Positions 16,313 to 28,476 of a stretch of 45,107 bases of DNA are shown here, one piece after another. Position numbers and translations under genes: made by a program. Location: positions 1-45,107 of the forward strand of contig NZ_JAGSOH010000058.1 in the NCBI RefSeq assembly GCF_018139625.1, written 5' to 3'. The notes beneath the pieces are model-generated. The model ran no database searches and was not told the DNA's origin. It saw only the letters and a program-made list of their open reading frames with translations. Position 1 is the stretch's first letter, and every line of letters begins with the position of its first letter. The DNA comes from Actinospica acidithermotolerans. GTDB taxonomy: Bacteria > Actinomycetota > Actinomycetes > Streptomycetales > Catenulisporaceae.

Positions 16313-17260
16313 ATGGTGGACCACGGCGACACGGCGACCCTCCGGACGCGGCTGACCAACGCCGAGAGCGGCGTGCTGCTGTTCGGCATCACGCCGCCCC
16401 GGCTCAGCGCCAGCGACGAGCGGATCCGGGAGATCGCCGCCGCCACGCTGGCGCGGCTGAAGTCGCTCGACGTGGACGGTCTCGCGGTCTACGACATCGA
16501 CGACGAGAGCGACCGCAACCCGCAGGAGCGGCCGTTCCCGTATCTGCCGACCATGGATCCGGCCGTGTTCCACGCCGACTACCTCGGCGAGTGGAACCGC
16601 CCGGCGGTCATCTACCGTTGCGTCGGCAAGTACACCGGCACGGAGCTGCGGACGTGGCTGCGGGAGGCCGATCCGGAGAGTGTGCTGAGCGTCTTCGTCG
16701 GCGCCTCTTCGAAGGGCAAGGAGGTGCGGACTCGGCTCCCCGAGGCCCAGGCTCTGCGCCGCGACGTCCGCCCGGAGCTGCTGCTCGGCGGCGTCGCCAT
16801 CACCGAGCGCACCGACGAGCACCTGCGGCTGATCGCGAAGCAGGAGGCTGGCTGCTCCTACTTCATCTCGCAGGTCGTCTACAGCGCCGACGCCGCGAAG
16901 AGCATGGTCTCCGACTACTACTACGCCTGCCGCGAACGCCGGATCGAGCCGAAGCCCGTGCTGTTCACGCTCTCCGTGTGCGGCTCGGAGAAGACCCTCA
17001 CCTTCCTGAGGTGGCTCGGCGTCGACGTCCCGCGCTGGCTGGCGAACTCGCTGCTGCACGCGGACGACACGCTCGCCGCGTCGTACGAGCACTGCCTGGC
17101 CAACGCCCGGGACCTGATCGCGTTCTGCGGCGCGCTCCGCATGCCGTTCGGCTTCCTCGTCGAAAGCGTCTCGATCCGCAAGGCGGAGATCGAGGCCTCC
17201 GTCGCGCTGGCGGCCGAGCTGAGCGAGCTGCTCGGCCGCGGCGGCGAGTCGCTCACCTGA
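16313..17260 (+). CDS. Methylenetetrahydrofolate reductase-like protein
   Basis: 315-aa soluble protein predicted as a TIM barrel. The opening strand LLFGITPPRL, the TLARLKSLDVDGLAVYDIDD segment, LLGGVAITERTDEHLRLIAK and the QEAGCSYFISQVVYSAD stretch correspond to the MTHFR layout. In canonical MTHFR the last of these is the KxxxGAxFxITQ region before the active site. The protein is divergent from MetF and lacks an obvious classic FAD loop, so it may belong to the non-canonical reductases seen in actinobacteria. It follows the MFS gene by 18 bp on the same strand, probably in one transcript. I am sure of the fold assignment more than of the reaction. Confidence 0.65.
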   Translation: MVDHGDTATLRTRLTNAESGVLLFGITPPRLSASDERIREIAAATLARLKSLDVDGLAVYDIDDESDRNPQERPFPYLPTMDPAVFHADYLGEWNRPAVIYRCVGKYTGTELRTWLREADPESVLSVFVGASSKGKEVRTRLPEAQALRRDVRPELLLGGVAITERTDEHLRLIAKQEAGCSYFISQVVYSADAAKSMVSDYYYACRERRIEPKPVLFTLSVCGSEKTLTFLRWLGVDVPRWLANSLLHADDTLAASYEHCLANARDLIAFCGALRMPFGFLVESVSIRKAEIEASVALAAELSELLGRGGESLT

Positions 17261-17350
17261 GCGGCATATCGGCGAAGCACTCGTGGCCCGGGACGGCCGA
17301 GTACCGGCCCGACGCGGCCGAGATCCCGTGAGAGCGCGGGGAGTTCAGGT

Positions 17351-17369
17351 GCTTCGAACGCGTCGAAGC
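17351..17369. terminator. Weak hairpin between convergent genes
   Basis: GCTTCGA (17351-17357) and TCGAAGC (17363-17369) form perfect 7-bp arms with a 5-base loop, placed a few bases beyond the ceramidase-like gene stop and about 90 bp beyond the MTHFR-like stop. It could serve either direction. The stem is short for a high-GC terminator. Confidence 0.4.
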
Positions 17370-17373
17370 GAGT

Positions 17374-18867
17374 TCAGAGCATCTGAGTGAGGTTGTTGAT
17401 GACGATCTGCTCGACGTCCACCGAGGGGTTGTTGGGCTGCAGCCGGAAGTGGCCGAGCCACCCGAAGATCGTCTGAGCGCCGCCGGCGATGCCCGGGTAG
17501 TCGGTGGACCAGCCGCAGGCGTAGTGCAGTGCCCCGCCCGAGGAGAGCAGTTCGTTGGAGGGGATGTAGGCCGGATACTCGTTGGCGTACCCGCAGACCC
17601 ACATTCCGTTGGAGCCTCCGTATCGGGATCGGAAGTAGACGGCGTAGCCGGAGACCAGCTCGCCGGCGGAGAGGGCGAGATTCAAACGAGGCGAGCCCTG
17701 CAACTGCCAGGTTTGCTGCGGTACGTACATGGAGGTCGCGAACGAGCCGTTGTCGATCTGCCCGATCATCATCTCAGCGTGCCGCCGGAAATAGCCGGGA
17801 AGCGCGCTGTTCGCCTGGCGAGCGACATAATCGGCACGCACCTGCGCGAGGTTCGCCGGGGTGTTGGTGATGTCGAGCGGAACCGTGACGTCGCGGTAGT
17901 CGGTCAAGATCGGGCCGGTGACCCGTCGTCCCCGCTTGGCGAGCGCGTTGACCACTGTCTGCCCGAGATCGGTGCCGTACTGAGTACTCAACTGCCAACT
18001 GAAGTCGCCGACCGGGTCCTGGTCTCCGGCCGATCCGGTCAGGAACTGGGCGTGCGCTTTCGTCGCATTCTCGATCAGAGTGCACGCCACGCCCGGGTAG
18101 TCCGGGTCGCTGAGCGTCTGACCCCCCGCGGCGACGGGGTGGCAGCCGTAGCTGAAGAGCACGGCTAGCAGACTGCCGTCGGCGCTGCTGCGGGCTGCCA
18201 GGATCGGTACATCGCGTTCGACGTACGGCAATCCCTCACGGTTGTAGGAGAAGTCCTCGTCGGCGACTTGGTAGTCGAGGGTGCACGGGGTACGCGGGGC
18301 GTTCAGTGTGGTGCTCACCAAGGACACGATCGCGTCCTCGACAGAGGTGGTATAGGCCTGGATCGCGCTGGCCGCCGCGGAACCCGAGGAGATGTTGTAG
18401 GTGATGTACTCGACCAGTTCGTTGATCAGCGCGCCGCCGTTGTGCGTGTGAAGCGCGGAGAGGACGAAGTCGGACTGCGCGACGCCGAGTGCGGAGACCC
18501 GGTTGCGGATGTTCAGGTTGACCGCTCGGTCGAAGCCGAGCGTATCGGCCGTGACGATGACGTTCGGGTAGCCGCCATCCCACAGGATGATGCATCGCGC
18601 GTACAAGGGAGCGTTGTTCCCGGTCGACAGACGCGGCGTGTCCACTCCCCATCCTGCCAGGGGTGTCCCGACCGGCGGTGTGATCTCGGACTTGCCCACA
18701 CTGATGGAAAGGGACGTCGCCCGCGCCTGCCGGCTCCGCCCGGCGACAGCGGTCGCCGCGGTGGCCGACGCGGCCGGGTTCATCATCTGGAGGAACGTCG
18801 CCGAGGTCGCGGCCCCGGCGAGGCTCAGAAACCTTCGGCGGGACGTACCTGCATTCTCGTCACACAT
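17374..18867 (-). CDS. Tat-exported ceramidase-like (neutral/alkaline non-lysosomal ceramidase N-terminal domain) protein
   Basis: 497-aa protein with a twin-arginine signal: TSRRRFLSLAGAATSATFLQ, then AlaSerAla-type cleavage before residue 50. The mature protein has KSEITPPVGTPLAGWG, the metal-type motif SALHTHNGG (ATHTHSGP in bona fide ceramidases), FSYGCHPVAAGG with DPDYPG, and LTGSAGDQDPVGD. In neutral ceramidases the last motif is GDxSPN with the nucleophilic Ser; here it reads GDQDP, so that Ser is missing and ceramide hydrolysis is doubtful. ATG 18867 has GAGGAG upstream, better than the ATG at 18903. It lies 260 bp downstream of the glycosylation operon on the same strand, possibly independently transcribed. 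Confidence 0.82.
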   Translation of the reverse strand: MCDENAGTSRRRFLSLAGAATSATFLQMMNPAASATAATAVAGRSRQARATSLSISVGKSEITPPVGTPLAGWGVDTPRLSTGNNAPLYARCIILWDGGYPNVIVTADTLGFDRAVNLNIRNRVSALGVAQSDFVLSALHTHNGGALINELVEYITYNISSGSAAASAIQAYTTSVEDAIVSLVSTTLNAPRTPCTLDYQVADEDFSYNREGLPYVERDVPILAARSSADGSLLAVLFSYGCHPVAAGGQTLSDPDYPGVACTLIENATKAHAQFLTGSAGDQDPVGDFSWQLSTQYGTDLGQTVVNALAKRGRRVTGPILTDYRDVTVPLDITNTPANLAQVRADYVARQANSALPGYFRRHAEMMIGQIDNGSFATSMYVPQQTWQLQGSPRLNLALSAGELVSGYAVYFRSRYGGSNGMWVCGYANEYPAYIPSNELLSSGGALHYACGWSTDYPGIAGGAQTIFGWLGHFRLQPNNPSVDVEQIVINNLTQML

Positions 18868-19127
18868 GGCTCTCCTCACATCCGTCAGCAGGGGTACGCT
18901 CACCTGTTTAACAGGCGGCGACGATGAGGAGCCGTCGGCGCGCCGACGGTTGCGCCGACCGCAGTACCCTGTGACTGGAAGATCCCGGGCGTTCGCCGCC
19001 CCGTGGGACGGCGGCGGCGCGGACGAGCGCGCGCCCCCGATCGCGGGTGACCGAGGGCGCCTATCTGCGGGTTAGTGAGGCAGGGTCGTCGTGGGCTTGC
19101 CGACGTTGTCGATCATCACGATCCGGA
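18868..19127. other. Intergenic region with an 18-bp palindrome; no gene recognised
   Basis: This 260-bp space separates the ceramidase-like gene from the second DUF2142 gene. It holds a perfect 18-bp palindrome at 18932-18949 (CCGTCGGCGCGCCGACGG), which could terminate the operon or act as an operator. It also holds a short minus-strand open stretch ending at the TAA at 19072-19074 whose last residues read STVIRIVMIDNVGKPTTTLP plus His. That peptide looks like a gene tail but has no start or upstream body. Confidence 0.5.
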
Positions 19128-20726
19128 TCACGGTGCTCCGGCTGATCGCCGTCTCACCGGCTCACGAAGCAGCGCGCCTACCGCAGTGAGGCGCACTGCG
19201 GCGCTGCTCAGGACGGGGCGCCACATGCACACCGCGAACACGATCAGCCCGACCGCCATCAGTGCCAGCGGCACAACGGGTCCGAGCGGCGGCACCCACT
19301 TCTCCGTCAAGGGGTTCAGCGGAAGCACGTTGTCGGCCGGAAAGCCCCGCTCGAACCGCAACATGCTGACCCAGAGGGCGACGAACTGGAGCGGGAGCAG
19401 GACCGCCGCCATCCAGCGCAGCAGCGTCCTCGCCCGCTCAGCGCCCAGTGCGCCCGAGCGGCCGAGCTCGATCGCTGCGATCATCGGGGCTCCTGCCAGC
19501 AGGGGAAGCGCATAGCGTCCCTGGGAGAAGTAGAAGCCCTGCCTGAGCGCGCTGGCGTCCGTGATCATCAACATCGCGAACGCGATGACGATCGTCCCGC
19601 CGATCTGGATCTTCGCCCGGACACTGCCCAGCCACAGGCCGCCGACCAGGATGACCCCGAGAAAGGCGAGCCAGATCTGCGAGACGACGCCCGGGATGGG
19701 GATGTCGCCGTAGGAGGTGAGTCGCGTCATCCCGTCGATGTAGCCCGGCAGGCGGTTCCACAGCTCTTGGGCGGCGAGCTGCACGGGGGGCGTGTTCGGA
19801 GCGGTCGTCGCACCGGCCAGGTCGAAGTTCGGGCCGGCCAACTCGTCCCAGGCCAAGGCGATGGCACACGCGCAGGCCACCCCCGCCAGCGCGAGTCGCA
19901 TACCCCGCGACCGCCACAGGGCACGAAGCTTCTCGCGGTCGGCGTTGAACACGCAGATGACGGTGATGGCCGCGAGCCAGCCGACGCCGAAGCCCCGAGT
20001 GACGGCGAGCAGCGCGCCGGAGCAGCACATGAGCGCGACCACCGGCCTGCGCACCGGACCGTGGGCCGTCAGATCGAGCAGGCTCACCCAGTAGGCGATC
20101 GCGGCGCCGATCTCCACTCCCGCCGGATTCACCGCACCCATCAGATTGACCACCGCCGGCGTGACGCCCACGGCGATTCCCGCGATGAACCAGAGCCTCC
20201 GCCCGCCGCTCCACGCGACCGCCACCGCACTGGCGAGCAGGGCGCTGATTTCAGCGTCCGTGATCAGCCTCGCGAGAACGATGCCTTTCATCGTCGGCCA
20301 GATGTGGATCACGGGCCCGACGAGCAGATAATAGGAGGGGTCGTAGCCTGAGGCACCGCTGATGTACCTCGTGTGCTCGTGCTGCGACTGCACGTTGGCG
20401 CCTGGCGTCTGCTGGCATTTCGCGCTGGCCTGCAGATTCCACCGGAAGCAGGCCGTGCCGTGCGGCACCAGGCTCTTCGCGGTGTAGACCTTGGAATCGG
20501 CCGGCCCCGCGAAAATCTGGCCGGAGGCGACGCCGTAGGCCCGGGTGACGTGCTGCATCTCGTCGGCCGGACCGTCGTACGGCATCGCGAGCGACCACGC
20601 CGCGCCGATCAGGAAGAACGCGGTGAACGCCACCGCCCAGACCAGTCGGGCCGCGCCCATGCGCGCCACGACGCGACGGGCGGCGAAGGATGGAGTCGCA
20701 CGCGTCGGCGACACGTCGGACAACAA
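19128..20726 (-). CDS. DUF2142 family membrane protein (predicted GT-C-type glycosyltransferase), GtrA-less copy
   Basis: 532-aa polytopic membrane protein with about 10-12 helices. After the first helix comes FTAFFLIGAAWSLAMPYDGP, an outer loop with acidic Asp/Glu residues (PADEMQHVTRAYG) and two Cys, then WPTMKGIVLARLITDAEISA. This is the DUF2142 pattern, which resembles lipid-linked GT-C transferases whose catalytic acid sits in the first outer loop. It is a close tandem paralogue of the preceding gene but stops shortly after RLTAVGALL, where the paralogue enters a GtrA domain. By alignment with that paralogue I place the start at TTG 20726 with AAAGGCGGGG upstream; ATG 20747 and GTG 20762 are alternatives without a ribosome site. 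Last gene of the six-gene operon. Confidence 0.78.
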   Translation of the reverse strand: MLSDVSPTRATPSFAARRVVARMGAARLVWAVAFTAFFLIGAAWSLAMPYDGPADEMQHVTRAYGVASGQIFAGPADSKVYTAKSLVPHGTACFRWNLQASAKCQQTPGANVQSQHEHTRYISGASGYDPSYYLLVGPVIHIWPTMKGIVLARLITDAEISALLASAVAVAWSGGRRLWFIAGIAVGVTPAVVNLMGAVNPAGVEIGAAIAYWVSLLDLTAHGPVRRPVVALMCCSGALLAVTRGFGVGWLAAITVICVFNADREKLRALWRSRGMRLALAGVACACAIALAWDELAGPNFDLAGATTAPNTPPVQLAAQELWNRLPGYIDGMTRLTSYGDIPIPGVVSQIWLAFLGVILVGGLWLGSVRAKIQIGGTIVIAFAMLMITDASALRQGFYFSQGRYALPLLAGAPMIAAIELGRSGALGAERARTLLRWMAAVLLPLQFVALWVSMLRFERGFPADNVLPLNPLTEKWVPPLGPVVPLALMAVGLIVFAVCMWRPVLSSAAVRLTAVGALLREPVRRRSAGAP

Positions 20727-20786
20727 TGTATTCCCCGCCTTTGACATGATGAGTAGATCCACTGGGGACGCGCTGTCCGCACGTCT

Positions 20787-22793
20787 TCAATCTGGCCGTC
20801 CGTCGAGACTGACCGCCCGCTCCGACTCCTCGACGGCTCGCCGCCTCATGATGACGCGCCCGATGTAGGGCGATACGGAGGGCGCCGGCTCCGGCGTGTC
20901 CGGCACGGGCTCAAAGACCCAACGCCGGTAGGCTACGAAGTTGAACACCGCGTTGAACGCGGTGGCGATGGTCTTCGATGCCAGGTAGTCGCTCCACAGG
21001 TGCGAGAGCCCTACGACGATGACGAGAGTGGTGACGTAGTTCACGCCGGACAGGGCCAGCAGCCGGGCTCCCTGACGACCCATCGGGCCGGATACCCGGA
21101 AGGTGAAGATCCGATTCAGCCCGAGATTCGCCGCGAAGGCACAGCAGAACGCCAGCGTGGTCGCGAGAGCGAGCGGCAGCCCGGCCTGAGCATGCAGCGC
21201 CCAGAGGGCTGCGATGTCGATCGCGTATACCAGGGCTCCGACCACTACGAATCGTAGCATCGTGGCGTCGAAGCGGGACGGGTGCCACATGAAGACGCCG
21301 AGCACGATGAGACCGATGATCATCAGAGCGATCGGCGCGACCGGGCCCAGCGGCGGCAGCCACTTTCCGATGAACGGATCGAGCGGAAGCTTTCCGCTGG
21401 CCGGATAACCGCTCTGAAATCGCAGCATGCTGCTCCAGAGCACGACGAGCTGGATCGGGAGCATGGCCACCGCCATCAAGCGCAGCAGCGCGGTCGCCCG
21501 TTCTGCGCCCACCGCACTCGAGCGGCCGAGTTCCCGCGCCCCGATCAGAGGTGCGCCCACCAGGAGGGGCAGCGCGTACCGTCCCTGGGAGAAGTAGATA
21601 CCCTGCCGCAGCGCATCGACGTCCGTGATCATCAGGACGGCGAGCGAGACACCGATCGCCGCGGCGATCTGGATCCTCGTGCGACGGCTTCCCAGCCATA
21701 GGCCGCCGAGCACGAGAAGTCCCGCGAAGCCGAACCAGATCTGCGAAACCAGCTGCGGGACCTGGATGTCGCCGCCGTAGTAGTAGGTGTTCCGCACCAA
21801 GCCGTCCAGGTAGGACGGCAGGCGGTGCCACAACTCCTGGGCGACGACCTGCTGCAGGGTCTTGTGAGGTGTACTGGCGCCGGTCAGGTCGATATTCGGC
21901 CCCGCCAAGAAGTCCCAGACGCACGCGGCTGCGCACGCGCACCCCAGCCCTGAAAGGGCGAGCCGTACGCTGCGCATCCGCCACAGCGCGCGCAGCCGCT
22001 CCCGCCTGGCGCCGAGCACGCAGATGACGACGGTGGCCCCGAGCCAGCCCACACCGAAGCCGCGTGTGACGGCGAACAGCGCACCGGAGCACAGCAGGAG
22101 GGCGACCGACGACCTGCGCACCGGTCCGGCACCGACGAGGTCCAGAAGGCTCACCCAGAACGCGATCGCGGCGCCGATCTCGACTCCCGCCGGGTTCACC
22201 GCGCCCATCAGACTGACGACCACAGGTGTGGCGCACACCGCGATCCCCGCGACCAACCATCGGTTCCGTCCGCCGCTCCAGGCGATCGCGACCGCACTGG
22301 CGAGCAGGGCACTGATCTCGGCATCGGTGATCAGGCGGGCGAGCACGATGCCTTTCATCGTCGGCCAGATCTTGATCACCGGCCCGACGAGCAGATAGTA
22401 GGAGGGGTCGTAGCCGGAGGCGCCGCTCCCGACAGAGACGCGCGTGTGCTGCGCCTTCTGGTTCGCGCCGGGATTCTGCTGGCACTTGGCGCTGACCATG
22501 CTGTTCCACCTGAAGCAGCCGGCGCCGCGCGGAACGAGGCTCTCCGCCGTCGTCACGTTGGAATTGGCAGGTCCGGCGTAGATCTGCCCGGACGCGACGC
22601 CGTAGGCCCGGGTGACGTGCTGCAACTCATCAGGCGGCCCGTCATACGGCATCGCCAGCGACCAAGCCGCGCCGATGAGGAAGAACGCGGTGAAGACGAT
22701 GACCCAGACCAGCCGGGCTGCGCCCACCCGCGCTACGACGCGGCGGGCAGCGAAGGATGAAGTCGCCTCCGTAGGCGACACGTCGGACAGCAC
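20787..22793 (-). CDS. DUF2142-GtrA fusion membrane protein
   Basis: 668-aa polytopic membrane protein. Residues 1 to about 510 form a DUF2142 domain nearly identical in layout to the next gene (MPYDGPPDELQHVTRAYG in the first loop, WPTMKGIVLARLITDAEISA, a late LGPVAPIALMIIGLIVLGVF helix). The last 150 residues are a four-helix GtrA domain: LRFVVVGALVYAIDIAALWA, ANLGLNRIFTFRV, LALSGVNYVTTLVIVVGLSH and FNAVFNFVAYRRWVF; the N-x-x-x-x-x-x-RxWVF end is diagnostic. GtrA proteins are thought to flip polyprenyl-phosphate sugars, and DUF2142 to transfer sugars outside. Start GTG 22793 has AAAGGCGG upstream, conserved in the paralogue. It lies 47 bp after the Gfo/Idh gene. Confidence 0.83.
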   Translation of the reverse strand: MLSDVSPTEATSSFAARRVVARVGAARLVWVIVFTAFFLIGAAWSLAMPYDGPPDELQHVTRAYGVASGQIYAGPANSNVTTAESLVPRGAGCFRWNSMVSAKCQQNPGANQKAQHTRVSVGSGASGYDPSYYLLVGPVIKIWPTMKGIVLARLITDAEISALLASAVAIAWSGGRNRWLVAGIAVCATPVVVSLMGAVNPAGVEIGAAIAFWVSLLDLVGAGPVRRSSVALLLCSGALFAVTRGFGVGWLGATVVICVLGARRERLRALWRMRSVRLALSGLGCACAAACVWDFLAGPNIDLTGASTPHKTLQQVVAQELWHRLPSYLDGLVRNTYYYGGDIQVPQLVSQIWFGFAGLLVLGGLWLGSRRTRIQIAAAIGVSLAVLMITDVDALRQGIYFSQGRYALPLLVGAPLIGARELGRSSAVGAERATALLRLMAVAMLPIQLVVLWSSMLRFQSGYPASGKLPLDPFIGKWLPPLGPVAPIALMIIGLIVLGVFMWHPSRFDATMLRFVVVGALVYAIDIAALWALHAQAGLPLALATTLAFCCAFAANLGLNRIFTFRVSGPMGRQGARLLALSGVNYVTTLVIVVGLSHLWSDYLASKTIATAFNAVFNFVAYRRWVFEPVPDTPEPAPSVSPYIGRVIMRRRAVEESERAVSLDGRPD

Positions 22794-22840
22794 TTGGGTT
22801 CCGCCTTTGACGACTGAGGTGTGGGCTTGGGAGGACGGGT

Positions 22841-23950
22841 CTAATCGACCGCGACGCGCTGTCCGCAGATGGCGGAGTTCAGCAGCGCCTCCGCGGTGCG
22901 GACGGTGCGCACGCCCTCCTCGAAGGTCACGATCTGCGCGCCGAGGCCGCGAACCGCGTCCCGGAACGCCTCGTGCTCGGCGCGCAGCGGTTCGGGCTTG
23001 GCGATCGCGTAGCGCACGATGTCGCCCTGGGTGACGCCGCGGAAGTTCTGCAATGCCTCCCATTCGGTGGGCACGCTGGAGTTCGCGTAGAAGGTGAGGT
23101 CCGCCGTGAGCGTGTCCGCCACGTAGCAGCCGCGCTCGCCGGTCACCACCGTCACGCGCTCCTTCATCGGCGAGAGCCAGTTGACGAGGTGGCTGGCCAC
23201 GGTGCCGTCCTCGAGGCCGCCGACGACCGCGACGAGGTCCTCGTGGTCGCGGCCGCTGCGGTGCGCCGTGTGCGCCGCGACGGACGTGTAGGCGCGCCGG
23301 GTGACCCACGTGGTCAGGTCGATGTCGTGCGTGGCCAGGTCCATCACGACGCCGACGTCCGCGATGCGGGCCGGGAACGGCCCCTGCCGCCGGGTGACGA
23401 CCTGGAAGACATCGCCGAGCTGCCCGGCGTCGAGCCGCCGGCGCATCTCCTGCAGCGCCGGGTTGAAGCGCTCGATGTGGCCCACGCCGCCGACCAGGCC
23501 GCGGTCGGCGAACAGCTTGCTGAGCCGTTCCGCGGCGGGCGAGTCCGGGGCGAGCGGCTTCTCGATGAGCGCGTGCACGCCGGCTTCGGCGAGCGCGGCG
23601 CCGACGGATTCGTGCAGCGCGGTGGGAGCGGCCACGACGCAGTAGTCGAGGCCGAGCCCGATGAGCGTCTCGACGTCGGGGACGAGCGGCGCGGCGTATG
23701 TCGTCGTGTCGGCGGAGGGATGCGGATCGGCGATCCCGACCAGGTGCACGCCGTCGAGGGAGGCGAGCACGCGCGCGTGGTTGCGGCCCATCATGCCGAG
23801 CCCGACCAGGCCGACGCGCAGCGTCGTGGTTTTCGCGGTGTTCGCGGTCGCAGTGTTCGTCGTTGTCCCGGTGTTCGTCGCGGTCGCGGTGTTCGTCGCT
23901 GGCGCGGTGCTCTCGGTGACGGTGCTCGTGGTCGCGGTGTTCGTGCTCAC
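22841..23950 (-). CDS. Gfo/Idh/MocA-family oxidoreductase (WbpB/WlbA-like UDP-sugar 3-dehydrogenase)
   Basis: 369-aa NAD-dependent sugar dehydrogenase. After an unusual 43-residue Thr/Asn/Ala tail comes the Rossmann signature LRVGLVGLGMMGRNHARVLA, the strand-end IADP, the EKPLA motif (Lys of the active site), GHIERFNPAL, and DVGVVMDLATHDIDLTTWVT, in which the conserved D-x-x-x-H pair is present. The central region resembles WbpB/WlbA, which oxidise C3 of UDP-GlcNAc uronate before transamination. The start is fixed by a GTGA overlap with the stop of the aminotransferase gene (23947-23950), so the tail is truly translated. Member four of the six-gene glycosylation operon. Confidence 0.85.
   Translation of the reverse strand: MSTNTATTSTVTESTAPATNTATATNTGTTTNTATANTAKTTTLRVGLVGLGMMGRNHARVLASLDGVHLVGIADPHPSADTTTYAAPLVPDVETLIGLGLDYCVVAAPTALHESVGAALAEAGVHALIEKPLAPDSPAAERLSKLFADRGLVGGVGHIERFNPALQEMRRRLDAGQLGDVFQVVTRRQGPFPARIADVGVVMDLATHDIDLTTWVTRRAYTSVAAHTAHRSGRDHEDLVAVVGGLEDGTVASHLVNWLSPMKERVTVVTGERGCYVADTLTADLTFYANSSVPTEWEALQNFRGVTQGDIVRYAIAKPEPLRAEHEAFRDAVRGLGAQIVTFEEGVRTVRTAEALLNSAICGQRVAVD
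23838..23950 (-). repeat. In-frame minisatellite encoding the Thr/Asn-rich N-terminus of the Gfo/Idh protein
   Basis: On the plus strand, units beginning GTGTTCG or GTGCTC run at 23838 (15 bp), 23853, 23871 and 23889 (18 bp each), 23907 and 23922 (15 bp each), and 23937 to the end. All lengths are multiples of three, so copy changes keep the frame. They encode repeats of the type ATNTAT/ATNTGT/TTNTAT before the Rossmann fold. Confidence 0.88.
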
Positions 23951-25008
23951 AGCGAGTTCACCGCCTCGATGACCTGGCCGACCTGCTCGTCGTCGAGCAG
24001 CGGGTAGACCGGCAGCGACAGGACGGTTTCAGCGGCGCGCTCCGTCACGGGCAGGTCCGCCACGCTGAAGCTGTAGGGCGCGAGGCGGTGGATCGGGGTC
24101 GGGTAGTAGACGCCGCTGCCGACACCGAGCTCCGCGAGCCGCTCGCGGAAGCCGTCCCGGTCCTGCTCGATCGTGATCGTGTACTGGTGGTAGACGTGCC
24201 ACGCGTCCCGCGCCACCTTCGGGGTGCGCACCGAGGTGAGTTCCGCGTCGTAGCGCGCCGCGATCTGGCGCCGTCGCTGCGTCCACGCGTCCAGCTTCGC
24301 CAGCTGGACCCGGCCGACCGCCGCGCCGACGTCGGTCATCCGGTTGTTCAGGCCGACGACTTCGTTCTCGTACTGCTTGAGCATTCCCTGGTTGCGCAGC
24401 AGCCGCAGCTTGCGCTCGAGGTGCGGGTCGCCGGTGACGATCATGCCGCCCTCGAGGCTGTGCATGTTCTTCGTCGGATAGAAGCTGAAGCAGGCGGTGT
24501 CGCCGAACGCGCCGACGGGAGTGTCGCCCAGCCGCGCGGCGACCGCCTGGGCCGCGTCCTCGACGATCGCGAGGCCGTGCCGGCCCGCCAGCGGGACCAG
24601 CTCGTCCATCGCGGCCGGGTGGCCAAACAGGTGCACCGGCACGATCGCGACGGTGCGCGGGGTGATCACGGAGGCGACCGACTCGGGGTCGAGGCAGAAC
24701 GTGTCCGGGTCGATGTCGGCGAAGACCGGGGCGGCCCCGGTGACCGCGACGGCGTTCGCCGTGGCCGCGAAGGAGAACGAGGGCACGACCACCTCGTCTC
24801 CCGGGCCGATCCCGAGCGCCAGCATGGACAGGTGCAGGGCCGAGGTCCCGGAGTTGACCGCGACGCAGGCCCGGCCGTCGACCAGCTTGCCGAACTCCTG
24901 CTCGAAGTCCGCGACCTCGGGGCCCTGCACCACCCGGCCGGTGCGCAGCACGCGGACCACGGCGTCGATCTCGTCCTGGCCGATCTCCGGCCTGGCAGCG
25001 GGAATCAT
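23947..25008 (-). CDS. DegT/DnrJ/EryC1/StrS-family PLP aminotransferase (WbpE-like)
   Basis: 353-aa sugar aminotransferase. It starts MIPAARPEIGQDEIDAVVRV and carries VNSGTSALHLSMLALGIGPG, the PLP-phosphate and ring-binding segment VEDAAQAVAA (D151) and the Schiff-base Lys in FSFYPTKNMHSLEGG (K180). The C-terminal part has GVGSGVYYPTPIHRLAPYSF, typical of enzymes acting on 3-keto or 4-keto nucleotide sugars. Beside a WbpB-like dehydrogenase and a WbpD-like acetyltransferase, amination at C3 is most likely. ATG 25008 overlaps the stop of the acetyltransferase gene by four bases, and its own stop overlaps the next start, so three genes are translationally chained. Confidence 0.9.
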   Translation of the reverse strand: MIPAARPEIGQDEIDAVVRVLRTGRVVQGPEVADFEQEFGKLVDGRACVAVNSGTSALHLSMLALGIGPGDEVVVPSFSFAATANAVAVTGAAPVFADIDPDTFCLDPESVASVITPRTVAIVPVHLFGHPAAMDELVPLAGRHGLAIVEDAAQAVAARLGDTPVGAFGDTACFSFYPTKNMHSLEGGMIVTGDPHLERKLRLLRNQGMLKQYENEVVGLNNRMTDVGAAVGRVQLAKLDAWTQRRRQIAARYDAELTSVRTPKVARDAWHVYHQYTITIEQDRDGFRERLAELGVGSGVYYPTPIHRLAPYSFSVADLPVTERAAETVLSLPVYPLLDDEQVGQVIEAVNSL

Positions 25009-25643
25009 GGGTGAATCTCCTCCAGAACTTCCGGAGCGTCTCCGGTCTTGACGTACCGCACGCCCGTCTGCGGGCACTTGTAGAGATCGCCGCCGAGCGG
25101 CACGAGCGGGACCGCGGCCCGGCCCACCCAACCGACGCGCCGCGCGGGATTGCCCGCGACCAGCGCGAAATCGGGCACGTCGCGGGTGACCACGGATCCC
25201 GCCGCGACCAGCGCCCACCGCCCGATGGTCACCGGCGCCACGCACACCGCGCCGGCGCCGATCGAGGCGCCGTATTTGACGACCACGCCGACCGGCGTCC
25301 AGTCGGCTGCCGATTTCGCGTCGCCCTCCGCGGTGATCGCACGCGGATGCCGGTCGTTCGTGAACACGACGGCGGGCCCGACGAACACGCCGTCCTCCAC
25401 GAGCGCCGGCTCGTAGACGAGGGCGTAATTCTGGATCTTGACGCGGTCGCCGATGCGCACGCCGGCGCCGACGTACACGCCTCTGCCGATCACGCACTGT
25501 TCGCCGATCCGCGCGTCCTCGCGCACCTGGGCGAGGTGCCAGACCGCCGTGTCGCCGCCGACGAAGGCCCGGTCGTGCACGAGGGCCGAGGGGTCGATCC
25601 GCGGGGGCGCGCCGGCCTGCGTGGCGTTCGCTGTCCTATTCAC
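25005..25643 (-). CDS. Left-handed beta-helix N-acetyltransferase (WlbB/WbpD-like)
   Basis: 212-aa hexapeptide-repeat acyltransferase. Successive [LIV]GxxxxI-type rungs are visible: ARIGEQCVIGRGVYVGAGVR, IGDRVKIQNYALVYE, VEDGVFVGPAVVFTNDRHPR, VKYGASIGAGAVCVAPVTIG and WALVAAGSVVTRDVPDFALV. The NDRHPRA loop and the AGNPARRVGWV end are typical of sugar N-acetyltransferases. The terminal CPQTGVRYV tail resembles WlbB. In the Wlb/Wbp pathway it acetylates the 3-amino group of a UDP-diamino uronate using acetyl-CoA. GTG 25643 was chosen because GGAGGA lies seven to eight bases upstream; GTG 25667 is in frame but lacks a site. Confidence 0.87.
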   Translation of the reverse strand: MNRTANATQAGAPPRIDPSALVHDRAFVGGDTAVWHLAQVREDARIGEQCVIGRGVYVGAGVRIGDRVKIQNYALVYEPALVEDGVFVGPAVVFTNDRHPRAITAEGDAKSAADWTPVGVVVKYGASIGAGAVCVAPVTIGRWALVAAGSVVTRDVPDFALVAGNPARRVGWVGRAAVPLVPLGGDLYKCPQTGVRYVKTGDAPEVLEEIHP

Positions 25644-25669
25644 GTGTGTCTCCTCCGCTTCGGCCACGG

Positions 25670-26821
25670 TCAGGACTGCCCCGGCACCCGTGCGGCCGAG
25701 ACGGGCCCGGCCAGGCTCGCCGCGGACGCAGAGCCGGCGGTCGCGGCCGCCGCAGGCGTCATGCCGGAGGTCGCGGCCGTCATGCTGGCCGCCGCCGCCG
25801 TCATGTCGGCGGTCGCGGCCGTCGCGGAGGGAGTCAATGTGCGCTGACGCGCGAGGGCCGCGCCCGAACCCGCGTCCCAGACCGGCCGGTCCGGTGCCTG
25901 CTGGATGTCGAGCGTCCAGGCACTGATGATCAGATGGAGGCCGGCCAGCAGCGGCGTGACCGCGAGCAGGACCGTGCCGGCGCTCGGCGCGCTGCCGCCG
26001 AAGATGCGGTAGAGCGTCATGCCGAGGCCGAAGGCGGTGCCGAACCCGAACAGTGCCATCCCGGCGAACAGCAGCAGGGCGACGGGCGAGAAGGACTGGA
26101 GTACGTATTTGACGAGAATGCGCTTCCAGAATCCGCGGAAGAGCAGCCAGGAGACCGCGGGGATGACCTTGTGCAGGCGCATTCCCGACACCTCGGCGCC
26201 GTAGACCGCCGGAACGGGCACGTCACGCGCCCGCACATTCGCGATACTCAATCGGATCAGCAGGTCGTTCTCGAATTCGTATCCCGTCGCCACCCGGTCG
26301 AGAGCGATGGCGCGCAGGGCGCGGGCCGAGGTGGCGGTGTAGCCGTTCTGCGGGTCGAAGAGGTGCCAGTAACCCGACGACGCCTTCGTCATAAAAGAGA
26401 GAATCACACTGCCGAACACCCGATGCTTCGGCATCCCGGTGAAGGACGTGCGCGAGAAGAAGCGATTCGCCTTGGTGAACTCCGCCTCGCCGTCGGCGAT
26501 CGGATCGAGCAGCGCGGGCAGGTAGGCGGGGTCCATCTGCGCGTCACCCGCCATGACGACGCTCACGTCCGCCTTGAGGTCGAGTGCGAGCCGGTGCCCG
26601 TCCAGGATCGCGCCGCCGACTCCGGTGTTGTGCTGATGCCTGATCAGCTGAACGCGGGGATCTCCGACGGAGAGTGCCTCGTCGGACGTGTTATCAGTGG
26701 AACAGTCGTCGATGACGACGATATGGTCGACGAATCCAGGCATCGTGCGGATCGTCTTACCGATCAATCGGACCTCGTTGTACGCCGGCACGACGACGGC
26801 GACCGTCAGATCCCTGTACAT
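25670..26821 (-). CDS. Glycosyltransferase family 2 with two C-terminal membrane helices (GtrB/DPM1-like)
   Basis: 383-aa protein. The GT-A fold opens with TVAVVVPAYNEVRLIGKTIR, followed by DHIVVIDDCSTDNTSDEAL, the glycine loop HQHNTGVGGAILDGHRLAL and the metal-binding segment VVMAGDAQMDPAYLPALLDP (DxD-like DAQMD). Two hydrophobic helices follow (VALLLFAGMALFGFGTAFGL and TVLLAVTPLLAGLHLIISAW). This is the layout of polyprenyl-phosphate hexose synthases that charge undecaprenyl phosphate on the inner face. The last 50 residues are an Ala/Thr/Met/Ser tail encoded by tandem repeats. ATG 26821 is the first residue before the family core; AAGGTGG is 12 bases away, so an upstream in-frame GTG is possible. 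First gene of the operon. Confidence 0.85.
   Translation of the reverse strand: MYRDLTVAVVVPAYNEVRLIGKTIRTMPGFVDHIVVIDDCSTDNTSDEALSVGDPRVQLIRHQHNTGVGGAILDGHRLALDLKADVSVVMAGDAQMDPAYLPALLDPIADGEAEFTKANRFFSRTSFTGMPKHRVFGSVILSFMTKASSGYWHLFDPQNGYTATSARALRAIALDRVATGYEFENDLLIRLSIANVRARDVPVPAVYGAEVSGMRLHKVIPAVSWLLFRGFWKRILVKYVLQSFSPVALLLFAGMALFGFGTAFGLGMTLYRIFGGSAPSAGTVLLAVTPLLAGLHLIISAWTLDIQQAPDRPVWDAGSGAALARQRTLTPSATAATADMTAAAASMTAATSGMTPAAAATAGSASAASLAGPVSAARVPGQS
25758..25820 (-). repeat. In-frame 21-bp minisatellite encoding the C-terminal tail of the glycosyltransferase
   Basis: Three 21-bp units beginning GTCATG lie at 25758-25778, 25779-25799 and 25800-25820, flanked by diverged partial units. 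On the coding strand they give seven-residue repeats of the MTAAxSx type (TADMTAA, AASMTAA, TSGMTPA). The period keeps frame. Confidence 0.87.
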
Positions 26822-27060
26822 CGATATCAGACCCACCTTATGAGCTGGTTTCAGGTTTATTTCAAACGAATCGCGGATGCCGAGGCTACTTCGTTCCCGG
26901 CGCCGCCACGTGCGATGCACCGATGCAGCGGGGAAATAACACCCGTGAGGGCGACAAGAGTCCACCGATACGGTGATTCCAGGCAACGGTTCGCCCCCGG
27001 CGGGGCGTGGCCGGTTGACCGGCGTAGCCTGCACCCCGAGCTCGAAAGGCAGGACCGACG
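26822..27060. promoter_or_regulatory. Divergent promoter region of the glycosylation operon and hglS
   Basis: About 240 bp between the divergent starts of the GT2 operon and the 2-oxoadipate dioxygenase gene. The left half is unusually AT-rich for the window (around 26838-26875, with GGTTTATTTCAAACGAATC), which would suit the operon promoter. I see no clear operator dyad, riboswitch or small ORF. Confidence 0.4.
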
Positions 27061-28476
27061 ATGGTCGCGACGATCGGCCAGTGGCGGCTGCGGGCGGCGT
27101 TCGCCCAGCGGCTCTCGCGGATGTACGGACGGGAGGTTCCGGCGTACACCACGCTCGTGGACGTCTCCCGCGAGGTGAACGAGGACGTCCTGCGCGCGCA
27201 GGGCGCCGACGCCGAGCGGCTGGGCTCCATCGGCCGGGTCGGCGCCGAGCGGCACGGCGCGATCCGCGTCGGCACGCCGCGCGAGATGCAGCAGGTCGCG
27301 CGGATCTTCGGCGCTCTCGGCATGCGGCCGGTCGGCTTCTACGACCTGCGTGACGCGGCGTCCAGCGCCGTCCCGGTCGTATCCACCGCTTTCCGCCCCG
27401 TCGAGGCCGCGGAGCTGGAGCGCAACCCGTTCCGGGTCTTCACGTCTATGCTCACGCCCGCCGACCCGCGGTTCTTCGACGCCGACCTGCGCGCCCGGCT
27501 GGAGGCCTTCCTCGCCGACCGCGAGCTGTTCCCCCCGGAACTGCTGGCCCTGGCCGACCGCGCGGAGGCGGAGGGCGAACTGCCCGAGGAGGCCGCCGAG
27601 CGGTTCCTCGATCTGGCCGTATCGGCGTTCGAGCTATCGCAGGAGCCGGTGGACAAGGCCTGGTACGAGACCCTGGAGCGCGTCTCCGCGGTGGCCGCGG
27701 ACATCGGCGGCGTACGCAGCACGCACATCAACCACCTCACCCCGCGCGTGCTCGACATCGACGAGCTCTACCGGCGGATGGGCGCGCACGGCATCGAGAT
27801 GATCGATTCGATCCAGGGCCCGCCGCGGTGGCACGGCCCCGACGTGCTGCTGCGCCAGACATCGTTCCGGGCGCTGGCCGAGCCGCGCACCCTGCGGCTG
27901 GCGGACGGTACCGTGGCCGTCGGGTCGCTGCGCGTGCGCTTCGGGGAGGTCGAGGCGCGCGGCATCGCCCTGACCCGGTCCGGCCGTGAGCTCTACGACA
28001 GGCTGCTGACGCTCGTCGACCGGGAAGCGGCGTCCCGTCCCGACGAACCCCGCAGCGACGTGGCGCGCCGGGTGTGGGCCGAGCACCTGCCCGGCACCGA
28101 GCGCGACCTCGCCGCGCAGGGCCTCGGGTACTTCACCTACCACCTCTCCCCCGCGCGCCCGCGCGACGGTTCGCGCCCGCCCGGCACCGCCGACGAGCTC
28201 GTGCGGCAGGGCTGGGCGACCGCTCGGCCCATCGTCTACGAGGACTTCCTGCCCCGCTCCGCGGCCGGGATCTTCCAGTCCAACCTCAGCGGCGCAGGCT
28301 CGAAGGACGAGGGGCACGACGGGATGGCCTACGATGCCCAGCGCATCGCGGCGGACATCGACCGGGACGTCCTGGACCCGTTCGACCTGTATGAACAGCA
28401 GCAGAGCGAGTCGCTGGCCCGATTGGCGCAAGAGCTGGGTTCCACCCAATGGCCCAGCCGCGTCGCCGGACCGTGA
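27061..28476 (+). CDS. hglS: 2-oxoadipate dioxygenase/decarboxylase (HglS/YdcJ, DUF1338 family)
   Basis: 471-aa protein of the HglS/YdcJ family, Fe(II)-dependent enzymes that convert 2-oxoadipate to D-2-hydroxyglutarate and CO2 in D-lysine degradation. The metal ligands of the vicinal-oxygen-chelate-like fold are visible as ERHGAIRVGTP (H65), STHINHLTPRVLDIDELY (H222/H225) and the Glu of FGEVEARGIALTRSGRELYD (about 297). VYEDFLPRSAAGIFQSNL near residue 393 is also conserved. The length fits the family. AGGCAGGA precedes the ATG. No other lysine-catabolic gene lies beside it, so the pathway partners must be elsewhere. Confidence 0.88.
   Translation: MVATIGQWRLRAAFAQRLSRMYGREVPAYTTLVDVSREVNEDVLRAQGADAERLGSIGRVGAERHGAIRVGTPREMQQVARIFGALGMRPVGFYDLRDAASSAVPVVSTAFRPVEAAELERNPFRVFTSMLTPADPRFFDADLRARLEAFLADRELFPPELLALADRAEAEGELPEEAAERFLDLAVSAFELSQEPVDKAWYETLERVSAVAADIGGVRSTHINHLTPRVLDIDELYRRMGAHGIEMIDSIQGPPRWHGPDVLLRQTSFRALAEPRTLRLADGTVAVGSLRVRFGEVEARGIALTRSGRELYDRLLTLVDREAASRPDEPRSDVARRVWAEHLPGTERDLAAQGLGYFTYHLSPARPRDGSRPPGTADELVRQGWATARPIVYEDFLPRSAAGIFQSNLSGAGSKDEGHDGMAYDAQRIAADIDRDVLDPFDLYEQQQSESLARLAQELGSTQWPSRVAGP

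Follow-up and report, generated by a model that had tools for sequence, protein, structure and literature searches.

In the Actinospica acidithermotolerans window analysed here, a stretch of 45,107 nucleotides that makes up one entire contig (C376, NZ_JAGSOH010000058.1) of a draft genome of 7.89 Mb in 422 contigs, six adjacent minus-strand genes are best described as a GtrA-type surface-glycosylation unit with its own sugar supply, a variant of known glycosylation systems. We favour, with some reserve, the reading that this operon is organised like arn, and that its products would make a 2,3-diacetamido sugar, probably a uronic acid, load it on polyprenyl phosphate, flip it and transfer it outside the cell. 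The reading is carried by the gene content, by the recurrent linkage of the same genes in other genomes, by a predicted GT-C fold with a conserved acidic pair, and by the other pathway enzymes encoded in this genome. In the open-licence literature, no paper describing this six-function module was found. The genes, from 26821 down to 19128, are as follows.

25670-26821, minus strand: glycosyltransferase family 2 (GT2) protein, ATG start, Pfam GT2 4e-19; proposed polyprenyl-phosphate loading enzyme
25005-25643, minus strand: hexapeptide (left-handed beta-helix) acetyltransferase, WlbB-like, Pfam hexapeptide 2e-16; proposed 3-N-acetyltransferase
23947-25008, minus strand: DegT/DnrJ/EryC1/StrS aminotransferase (DegT), Pfam 1e-121; proposed 3-keto-sugar aminotransferase
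22841-23950, minus strand: Gfo/Idh/MocA dehydrogenase (Gfo), GTG start, Pfam 7e-18; proposed UDP-sugar 3-dehydrogenase
20787-22793, minus strand: DUF2142-GtrA fusion, GTG start, Pfam DUF2142 9.5e-24 and GtrA 9e-15; proposed flippase-transferase
19128-20762, minus strand: second DUF2142 protein, a tandem paralogue without GtrA, GTG start or ATG at 20747, Pfam 4e-21; proposed GT-C protein

An earlier note on this DNA had described six minus-strand genes of these families with two four-base overlaps, and both points are borne out by the coordinates and Pfam matches, the overlaps being ATGA at 25005-25008 and GTGA at 23947-23950. Its range of 26-60 bp for the other junctions holds to within a few bases: the genes there lie 26, 47, and 24 or 39 bp apart, the last distance depending on the start of the second DUF2142 gene. 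The acetyltransferase gene starts with GTG behind GGAGGAG, and a longer alternative from 25667 is possible. The two DUF2142 proteins represent a tandem duplication (70% identity in protein, 77% in DNA). A simple scan of 17000-27300 gave no match to a sigma-70-type promoter, versus 0.6 in shuffles, and four terminator-like sites, versus 2.7.

Gfo, DegT and a hexapeptide acetyltransferase, the enzyme set that marks the Wbp/Utr-type pathway to 2,3-diacetamido-2,3-dideoxy-hexuronates, are encoded together in this operon. The acetyltransferase has its best PDB match in 3mqg (6e-45), which we take to be WlbB; the next match is far weaker (9e-24), and QdtC reaches just 1.6e-16. DegT matches 7b0d best (1e-86), with WbpE (7e-69) one of several sugar aminotransferases; others score better than WbpE, among them 2oga, presumably an enzyme of the desosamine pathway. 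For Gfo, the best PDB match is 7bvj (5e-24), which we assume to be GnnA, followed more weakly by 3q2k (5e-14), presumably WlbA. Its best NCBIfam model is that of the UDP-N-acetylglucosamine (UDP-GlcNAc) 3-dehydrogenase (NF040723), at 192.5 bits below the curated cut-off of 450, a score that would not exclude its working like that enzyme. As the earlier note had proposed for Wbp-type chemistry, the three enzymes appear to fit an N-acetylated 3-amino-3-deoxy sugar; the uronate part of that chemistry is a matter of probability, since six relatives with this cassette and GT2 have no WbpA orthologue, and either oxidation state of C6 could apply.

Two features of Gfo were considered as markers of that state and set aside. 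The NF040723 score lies at 182-203 bits in seven of nine Gfo proteins, with or without a 6-dehydrogenase; other scores are 246 bits for the Gfo of locus L118 and 415 bits for a partial archaeal Gfo. In all 18 first-counted cassettes whose stretch includes a 6-dehydrogenase, residue 203 of the 369-residue open reading frame is Lys; the window Gfo has Met there, Nocardioides has Leu and L101 has Tyr. As a contact for a carboxylate this position fails, since L250 has Met with a 6-dehydrogenase nearby, and since Lys is kept in three lineages with neither an orthologue of the 6-dehydrogenase nor one as neighbour. The window Gfo also carries some 40 additional N-terminal residues, many of them Thr, Asn and Ala, and none of the aligned relatives has such an extension in this form.

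The membrane half of the operon was examined by structure prediction, a check that the earlier note had proposed for DUF2142 as a GT-C enzyme. An AlphaFold2 model of the DUF2142-GtrA fusion, made from an alignment of 48 rows (32 of DUF2142, comprising both window copies and 30 of 56 found, and 16 of 29 of GtrA), has a mean predicted local distance difference test score (pLDDT) of 87.9 and a predicted template modelling score (pTM) of 0.83. VIA-align, in which helical proteins can reach Z of about 13 through a common arrangement, placed the model at Z 15.8 to ArnT (5f15, with undecaprenyl phosphate; root-mean-square deviation 4.7 over 332 aligned residues), likewise at 15.8 to ALG12, and at 14.8 to AftD. 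An acidic pair at the start of the first outer loop is typical of GT-C enzymes, and here, in model numbering, D54 is found in 32 of 32 DUF2142 rows and E55 in 30, with Asp in the other two; H58, R404 and Y405 are conserved as well. DUF2142 thus models as a GT-C transferase. The literature naming this family, as far as open-licence papers go, concerns lactococci and streptococci: the accessible texts describe DUF2142 proteins as membrane proteins of rgp loci (PMC9746298) and hypothesise that they are polymerases or transferases of wall polysaccharide (PMC12599335).

The GtrA protein of this system is present as a domain fused to DUF2142, over the Pfam cut-off. In the model, the GtrA part aligns with the membrane helices of the dolichyl-phosphate-mannose synthase Dpm1, at a Z of 7.8 that lies in the uncertain range, and would fit either a flippase or a membrane anchor for GT2. 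Dolichyl-phosphate-mannose synthase has a membrane domain that likewise falls within the Pfam GtrA family, and flipping by the GtrA domain is one of the steps that we infer. With up to four candidates scored per genome, the fusion was found in no other genome among 292 of the order or 393 of the class, two draws that overlap.

The third component, a GT2 enzyme of the type of dolichyl-phosphate-mannose synthase or GtrB with membrane helices at its C-terminus, is encoded by the first gene. Hydropathy places two C-terminal hydrophobic helices near residues 235-253 and 280-298; the sole PDB match at 1e-5 is the dolichyl-phosphate-mannose synthase 5mlz (3.5e-10), and the nearest NCBIfam models are AglJ (68 bits) and PpgS (50 bits), both below cut-off.

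Linkage of this GT2 to the sugar cassette recurs far beyond the window. A scan of the genome collection with a GT2 alignment gave at least 545 stretches with relatives, of which the best 80 were taken. The first 32 (L128-L159), from actinomycetes or other Actinomycetota and with GT2 50-66% identical, hold GtrA in 26 loci, DegT with Gfo in 20, the acetyltransferase in 17, DUF2142 in 6, a 6-dehydrogenase in 4 and WecB in 3. Where at least 9 kb lie on both sides of GT2, DegT and Gfo are present in 18 of 24 loci, a count that includes near-copies (five Arthrobacter-type, three Micromonospora, two Streptomyces and two Microbacterium loci); seven named families show the pair. They occur in 2 of the 48 other loci (L170 and L190; GT2 42-49% identical), a count lowered by divergence and short contigs. 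Among 250 genomes searched of the family of Micromonospora inaquosa, 14 have GT2 at 1e-80, and 11 of the 12 loci taken carry DegT and Gfo (L255 does not); two of the 12, L251 (the same as L156) and L257, are, judged by length, contigs that had come up already. All six functions lie within 20 kb in 5 of the 32 loci (L128, L129, L141, L152, L156) and in 6 of the 12 from the Micromonospora family (L251, L252, L253, L254, L256, L258), ten distinct loci besides the window, several of them close kin.

Of the 14 distinct loci in the Micromonospora family, 8 are arranged as GtrA (reverse), acetyltransferase, DegT, Gfo, GT2 and DUF2142, with a different and remote Gfo that matches 7bvj better (3e-33). 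The GT2-linked state has to change three times on a tree of the close Gfo lineage; starred branches force at least two of these changes, which may be gains or losses (for instance a single gain followed by two losses). That one GT2 family is accompanied by two Gfo lineages, and that the linkage changes, argues for a shared function beyond shared descent. The refuting case named in the earlier note, genes consistently separated in relatives, did not arise: DegT and Gfo lie near GT2 in the seven families, and two remote Gfo lineages accompany the same GT2 family. Its idea that sugar synthesis is coupled to lipid loading, flipping and GT-C transfer gains support from the recurrent linkage.

The transferase varies between loci. 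Ten many-helix proteins from GT2 loci were scanned: five are DUF6541 proteins (from Arthrobacter, a Geodermatophilaceae genome, Homoserinimonas, an Actinomycetales metagenome-assembled genome and Oerskovia), one belongs to GT87 (Phycicoccus), one is an acyltransferase and three had no match. A DUF6541 profile adds Paenarthrobacter, Pseudonocardia and others.

L143:7371-9506, L135:4884-6962, L136:11002-13137, L142:7223-9517 and L148:5222-7372: large DUF6541 membrane proteins in GtrA-GT2 loci

A model of DUF6541 from 12 rows (pLDDT 80.3, pTM 0.85) reaches Z up to 20.2 over 469 residues to oligosaccharyltransferase subunits, a predicted likeness that includes the C-terminal soluble part. The GT-C partner is thus exchanged between DUF2142 and an oligosaccharyltransferase-like DUF6541 protein, a family for which no paper naming it was found in the open-licence literature.

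On a GT2 tree made by a quick method (16 of 40 inner branches open; the repeats L251 and L257 and rows below 330 bits left out), the window GT2 groups with those of L249 and L250 (98*), to which it is 70% identical. L250 holds a 6-dehydrogenase, a WecB-like epimerase, GtrA, GT2, Gfo, DegT, the acetyltransferase and an ABC exporter, and its 6-dehydrogenase is 74% identical to one encoded elsewhere in the A. acidithermotolerans genome. L249, which starts at a contig end, is the same without the 6-dehydrogenase; no DUF2142 was seen in either stretch. It is mainly because the locus of this nearest GT2 relative, L250, holds the 6-dehydrogenase and the WecB-like epimerase that we favour a uronic acid.

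Both of these enzymes have counterparts in the host. Of 293 genomes of the order, 69, the host among them, have a relative of the window Gfo; outside the window, the matches listed are 63-69% identical, bar one at 44%. Around 20 related Gfo genes taken from the order, DegT adjoins in 19 and a nucleotide-sugar 6-dehydrogenase lies in 16 of the stretches, including that of a second copy in the host; of the four others, L090 is truncated by the end of its contig, L099 represents the homologue of 44% identity, and L101 and L102 contain just the Gfo-DegT pair. The second copy belongs to an acetyltransferase-DegT-Gfo cassette on contig C389, directly adjoined by a 6-dehydrogenase gene (C389:113989-115227) and accompanied by an ABC-2 transporter, an ABC ATPase and a group-1 glycosyltransferase. 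By sequence match, a candidate UDP-N-acetylhexosamine 6-dehydrogenase is thus available, its best PDB match (4r16, 3e-59) being annotated as UDP-N-acetylmannosaminuronic acid dehydrogenase. A WecB/WbpI-like epimerase on contig C370 is 64% identical to the copy of a Leifsonia poae locus and 69% to that of L250. The operon cassette, the C389 6-dehydrogenase and the C370 epimerase together mean that candidates for all five enzymes of the Wbp-type route are encoded in the genome, scattered over several places. WbpA, which the earlier note had found missing from the window, is indeed absent among the operon genes, but a candidate exists elsewhere in the genome. Recent duplication within the host was rejected as the origin of the two cassettes: a Gfo tree built by a quick method from 34 of 47 rows, with 12 of 31 inner branches open and a long branch leading to the window Gfo, does not group the latter as a pair with the copy on C389. 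The tree omits ten sequences of the remote Gfo type, as well as L219, L133 and L057, which come from identical or overlapping genomic places or from a short locus.

In the mechanism we propose, Gfo would oxidise C3 of a UDP-GlcNAc derivative, DegT would aminate the resulting keto position, and the acetyltransferase would cap the new amine, giving a UDP-2,3-diacetamido-2,3-dideoxy sugar. The product would most likely be the glucuronic acid form, UDP-2,3-diacetamido-2,3-dideoxy-glucuronic acid (UDP-GlcNAc3NAcA), with C6 oxidised by the WbpA/UtrD-type dehydrogenase of contig C389. GT2 would then load the sugar on polyprenyl phosphate, the GtrA domain would carry the lipid-linked sugar across the membrane, and the DUF2142 GT-C domains would hand it on to an acceptor outside the cell, probably a polysaccharide of the wall. 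In this scheme, the state of C6, the lipid-linked intermediate, flipping and the acceptor are all inferred.

Several observations weigh against the favoured reading, and the first of them bear on C6. The operon itself has no 6-dehydrogenase, and the best NCBIfam and PDB matches of its Gfo point to enzymes that use UDP-GlcNAc itself (the 3-dehydrogenase model and 7bvj). A 6-dehydrogenase 66-70% identical to that of the host is found in 6 of 15 other GT2-bearing genomes tested. Of the nine without this orthologue, six, most of which lack a completeness estimate, carry an orthologous cassette with GT2: two Streptomyces, Nocardioides, two Microbacterium and Arthrobacter, with no 6-dehydrogenase more than 39% identical to the WbpA-like one. 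One of these six, G688, has none at 1e-20 and a single nucleoside diphosphate-sugar dehydrogenase at 1e-15. The 6-dehydrogenase is therefore not present wherever the cassette is used with this GT2, and membership in the uronate branch of the Wbp/Utr-type pathway, which we still consider probable, is not established; in some hosts the unit can probably run without C6 oxidation. These genomes make a serious rival of the same machinery working on a neutral sugar, in which Gfo would act directly on UDP-GlcNAc and UDP-GlcNAc3NAc would be exported with no need for a 6-dehydrogenase, as might also fit the Micromonospora modules with their other, more 7bvj-like Gfo. We nevertheless regard it as rather unlikely here, given that the nearest relatives of the window GT2 sit with a WecB-like epimerase and, in L250, also with a 6-dehydrogenase, that a 6-dehydrogenase lies near most of the related Gfo genes (16 of 20), and that the host encodes both enzymes. 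Matches of the UDP-GlcNAc type are, moreover, equally seen for Gfo of cassettes near a 6-dehydrogenase (191 and 200 versus 192 bits).

The remaining points against the favoured reading concern the membrane proteins and the comparison with published loci. Taken alone, Foldseek produced no hit for the fused protein at E 0.001 or better, its top hit being ArnT at 0.0039, so that the claim of a GT-C fold rests on VIA-align and the conserved residues. DUF2142 is present in just 6 of the first 32 GT2 loci. Two other genomes of the same genus have, in one case, no DUF2142 match and, in the other, a single match at 28% identity; the unit is accessory, since they hold no close DUF2142. The likeness to the Streptomyces utr loci discussed below was set by described gene content, not by sequence.

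Two other explanations were weighed. Because the C389 cassette comes with an ABC transporter and a glycosyltransferase, the host probably already uses a sugar of the UDP-GlcNAc3NAcA type, and the operon cassette could simply boost its supply for the ABC-exported wall polymer of C389, with GT2, GtrA and DUF2142 handling some ordinary sugar, for example GlcNAc; GtrA systems, in the accessible part of their description, carry galactose (Gal), GlcNAc or glucose (Glc) (PMC8035078). We judge this improbable, as cassette and GT2 occur together repeatedly, with two remote Gfo lineages, and their link changed at least twice on the tree of one lineage. It is still harder to believe that the aminotransferase and dehydrogenase make an unrelated amino sugar, such as a dTDP-3-amino-3,6-dideoxyhexose, for a natural product, even though DegT matches 7b0d and the presumed desosamine-pathway enzyme 2oga better than WbpE. 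The acetyltransferase matches the presumed WlbB far better than QdtC, and the relatives lie near 6-dehydrogenase and WecB genes. Among 44 neighbour proteins (from L085, L128, L130, L132, L152, L249 and L250), several of which had no match at all, none matched an antibiotic pathway; those related to sugars comprise glycosyltransferases, epimerases, exporters and a TagF-type protein.

If the favoured reading is correct, two unnamed membrane families, DUF2142 of actinomycetes and DUF6541, acquire a testable function, a diamino sugar linked to polyprenyl phosphate is predicted, and assembly outside the cell is connected with a type of wall glycan that was recently identified as a toxin receptor. 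Should the proposed roles hold, flippase and transferase form one polypeptide in the host genome, and because both lie on one chain here, the operon is a test case for GtrA/GT-C cooperation. More tentatively, and on balance doubtfully, the unit could be a widespread actinomycete device that adds 2,3-diacetamido-2,3-dideoxy-hexuronic acid, or its neutral form, to external acceptors residue by residue from polyprenyl phosphate with an exchangeable GT-C enzyme, in this genome as a fused flippase-transferase. Such a device would give the type of sugar that serves in the umbrella-toxin receptors of Streptomyces a second route, one outside the cytoplasm, and with it a means of altering such a receptor.

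Some loci and neighbours merit separate mention. In Micromonospora inaquosa (L128:4731-14204), genes for a proteasomal ATPase and for a protein of the Pup-ligase family flank the six-gene module, a proteasome subunit gene follows further on, and two genes near 19-21 kb resemble sugar genes by their N-termini. In Methanosarcina sp. KYL-1 (L190, 3004-11461), the neighbourhood of an archaeal GT2 relative contains Gfo, DegT, the acetyltransferase and two relatives of the 6-dehydrogenase, so that the association of GT2 and cassette crosses domains. Proteins with a DMFA2_C domain (PF20254) lie near GT2 in two actinomycete families (L250:10155-11681 and L132:13530-15632); that of L132 has Tachylectin repeats, and that of L250 begins, by eye, like a protein secreted by the twin-arginine translocation (Tat) pathway. 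In the window, 224 bp downstream of the operon and on the same strand, 17374-18903 encodes a protein that bears a Tat-like signal and whose N-terminal domain is of the ceramidase type (PF04734, 34 bits); it is a possible candidate for an acceptor or a glycan-active enzyme. For the neighbour gene at 27061, no match at 1e-60 was obtained in four relatives, an empty answer that shows nothing.

Among known systems, the arn operon encodes ArnB, ArnC and ArnT and places 4-amino-4-deoxy-L-arabinose (L-Ara4N) on lipid A. The layout is shared, with an own amino sugar made through a DegT enzyme, loading by GT2, a flippase and a GT-C enzyme, and the DUF2142 model is close to ArnT, whereas the sugar chemistry differs and lipid A is not available as acceptor. 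No genes of the ArnA, ArnD or ArnEF type are among the Pfam matches of the six operon genes, the rest of the genome not having been searched, and the likeness to arn is one of analogy only. With WbpA/B/E/D/I of Pseudomonas aeruginosa and Wlb of Bordetella, the operon shares an acetyltransferase and a DegT that match the presumed WlbB and WbpE; its Gfo is just remotely like the presumed WlbA, the 6-dehydrogenase and epimerase lie elsewhere in the genome, and the host is Gram-positive. GnnA and GnnB, which feed LpxA with the diamino sugar of lipid A, and the UDP-GlcNAc3NAc route of methanogens use Gfo and DegT on UDP-GlcNAc. The operon shares both enzymes and is remote in sequence, the NCBIfam cut-off not being reached. 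Three-component systems that add pentofuranoses reportedly show that such systems can carry unusual sugars, although the sugar there is not diamino, unlike the one proposed here.

The GtrA-type systems (CsbB/GtcA/YfhO, Csd), as the accessible text presents them, share a GT-A type GT2 with membrane helices, a GtrA protein and a GT-C enzyme; they move Glc, Gal or GlcNAc, whereas the operon encodes synthesis of its donor and a GtrA fused to GT-C (PMC8035078). The gsf cluster of Actinoplanes missouriensis comprises a UDP-ManNAc/GlcNAc dehydrogenase, GtrA, a GT2 with two helices and an 11-helix protein without a named domain, and its deletion leads to small sporangia and immature spores (PMC13390465). 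Compared by description, and unlike the operon, gsf has no aminotransferase, Gfo or hexapeptide acetyltransferase in the accessible part of that account (PMC13390465). We suggest that the 11-helix protein, AMIS_70420, may be the missing GT-C enzyme of the cluster. The nearest published relatives by gene content are the utr loci of Streptomyces, which hold an aminotransferase and oxidase (utrA, utrB), an N-acetyltransferase (utrJ), a UDP-sugar dehydrogenase (utrD) and a 2-epimerase (utrH), by description the same set of sugar enzymes as the operon and the host genome together (PMC13274773, accessible text). Nuclear magnetic resonance identified a teichuronic-acid-like polymer with GlcNAc3NAcA and its manno counterpart ManNAc3NAcA in S. 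griseus and one with GlcNAc3NAcA in S. antibioticus, linked to wall teichoic acid (PMC13274773). In gene content, the cassette relatives described above agree with these loci. Assembly in the utr systems is proposed to proceed through glycosyltransferases likened to TarS and TarM, whereas the GT2, GtrA and GT-C proteins of the operon imply assembly outside the cell.

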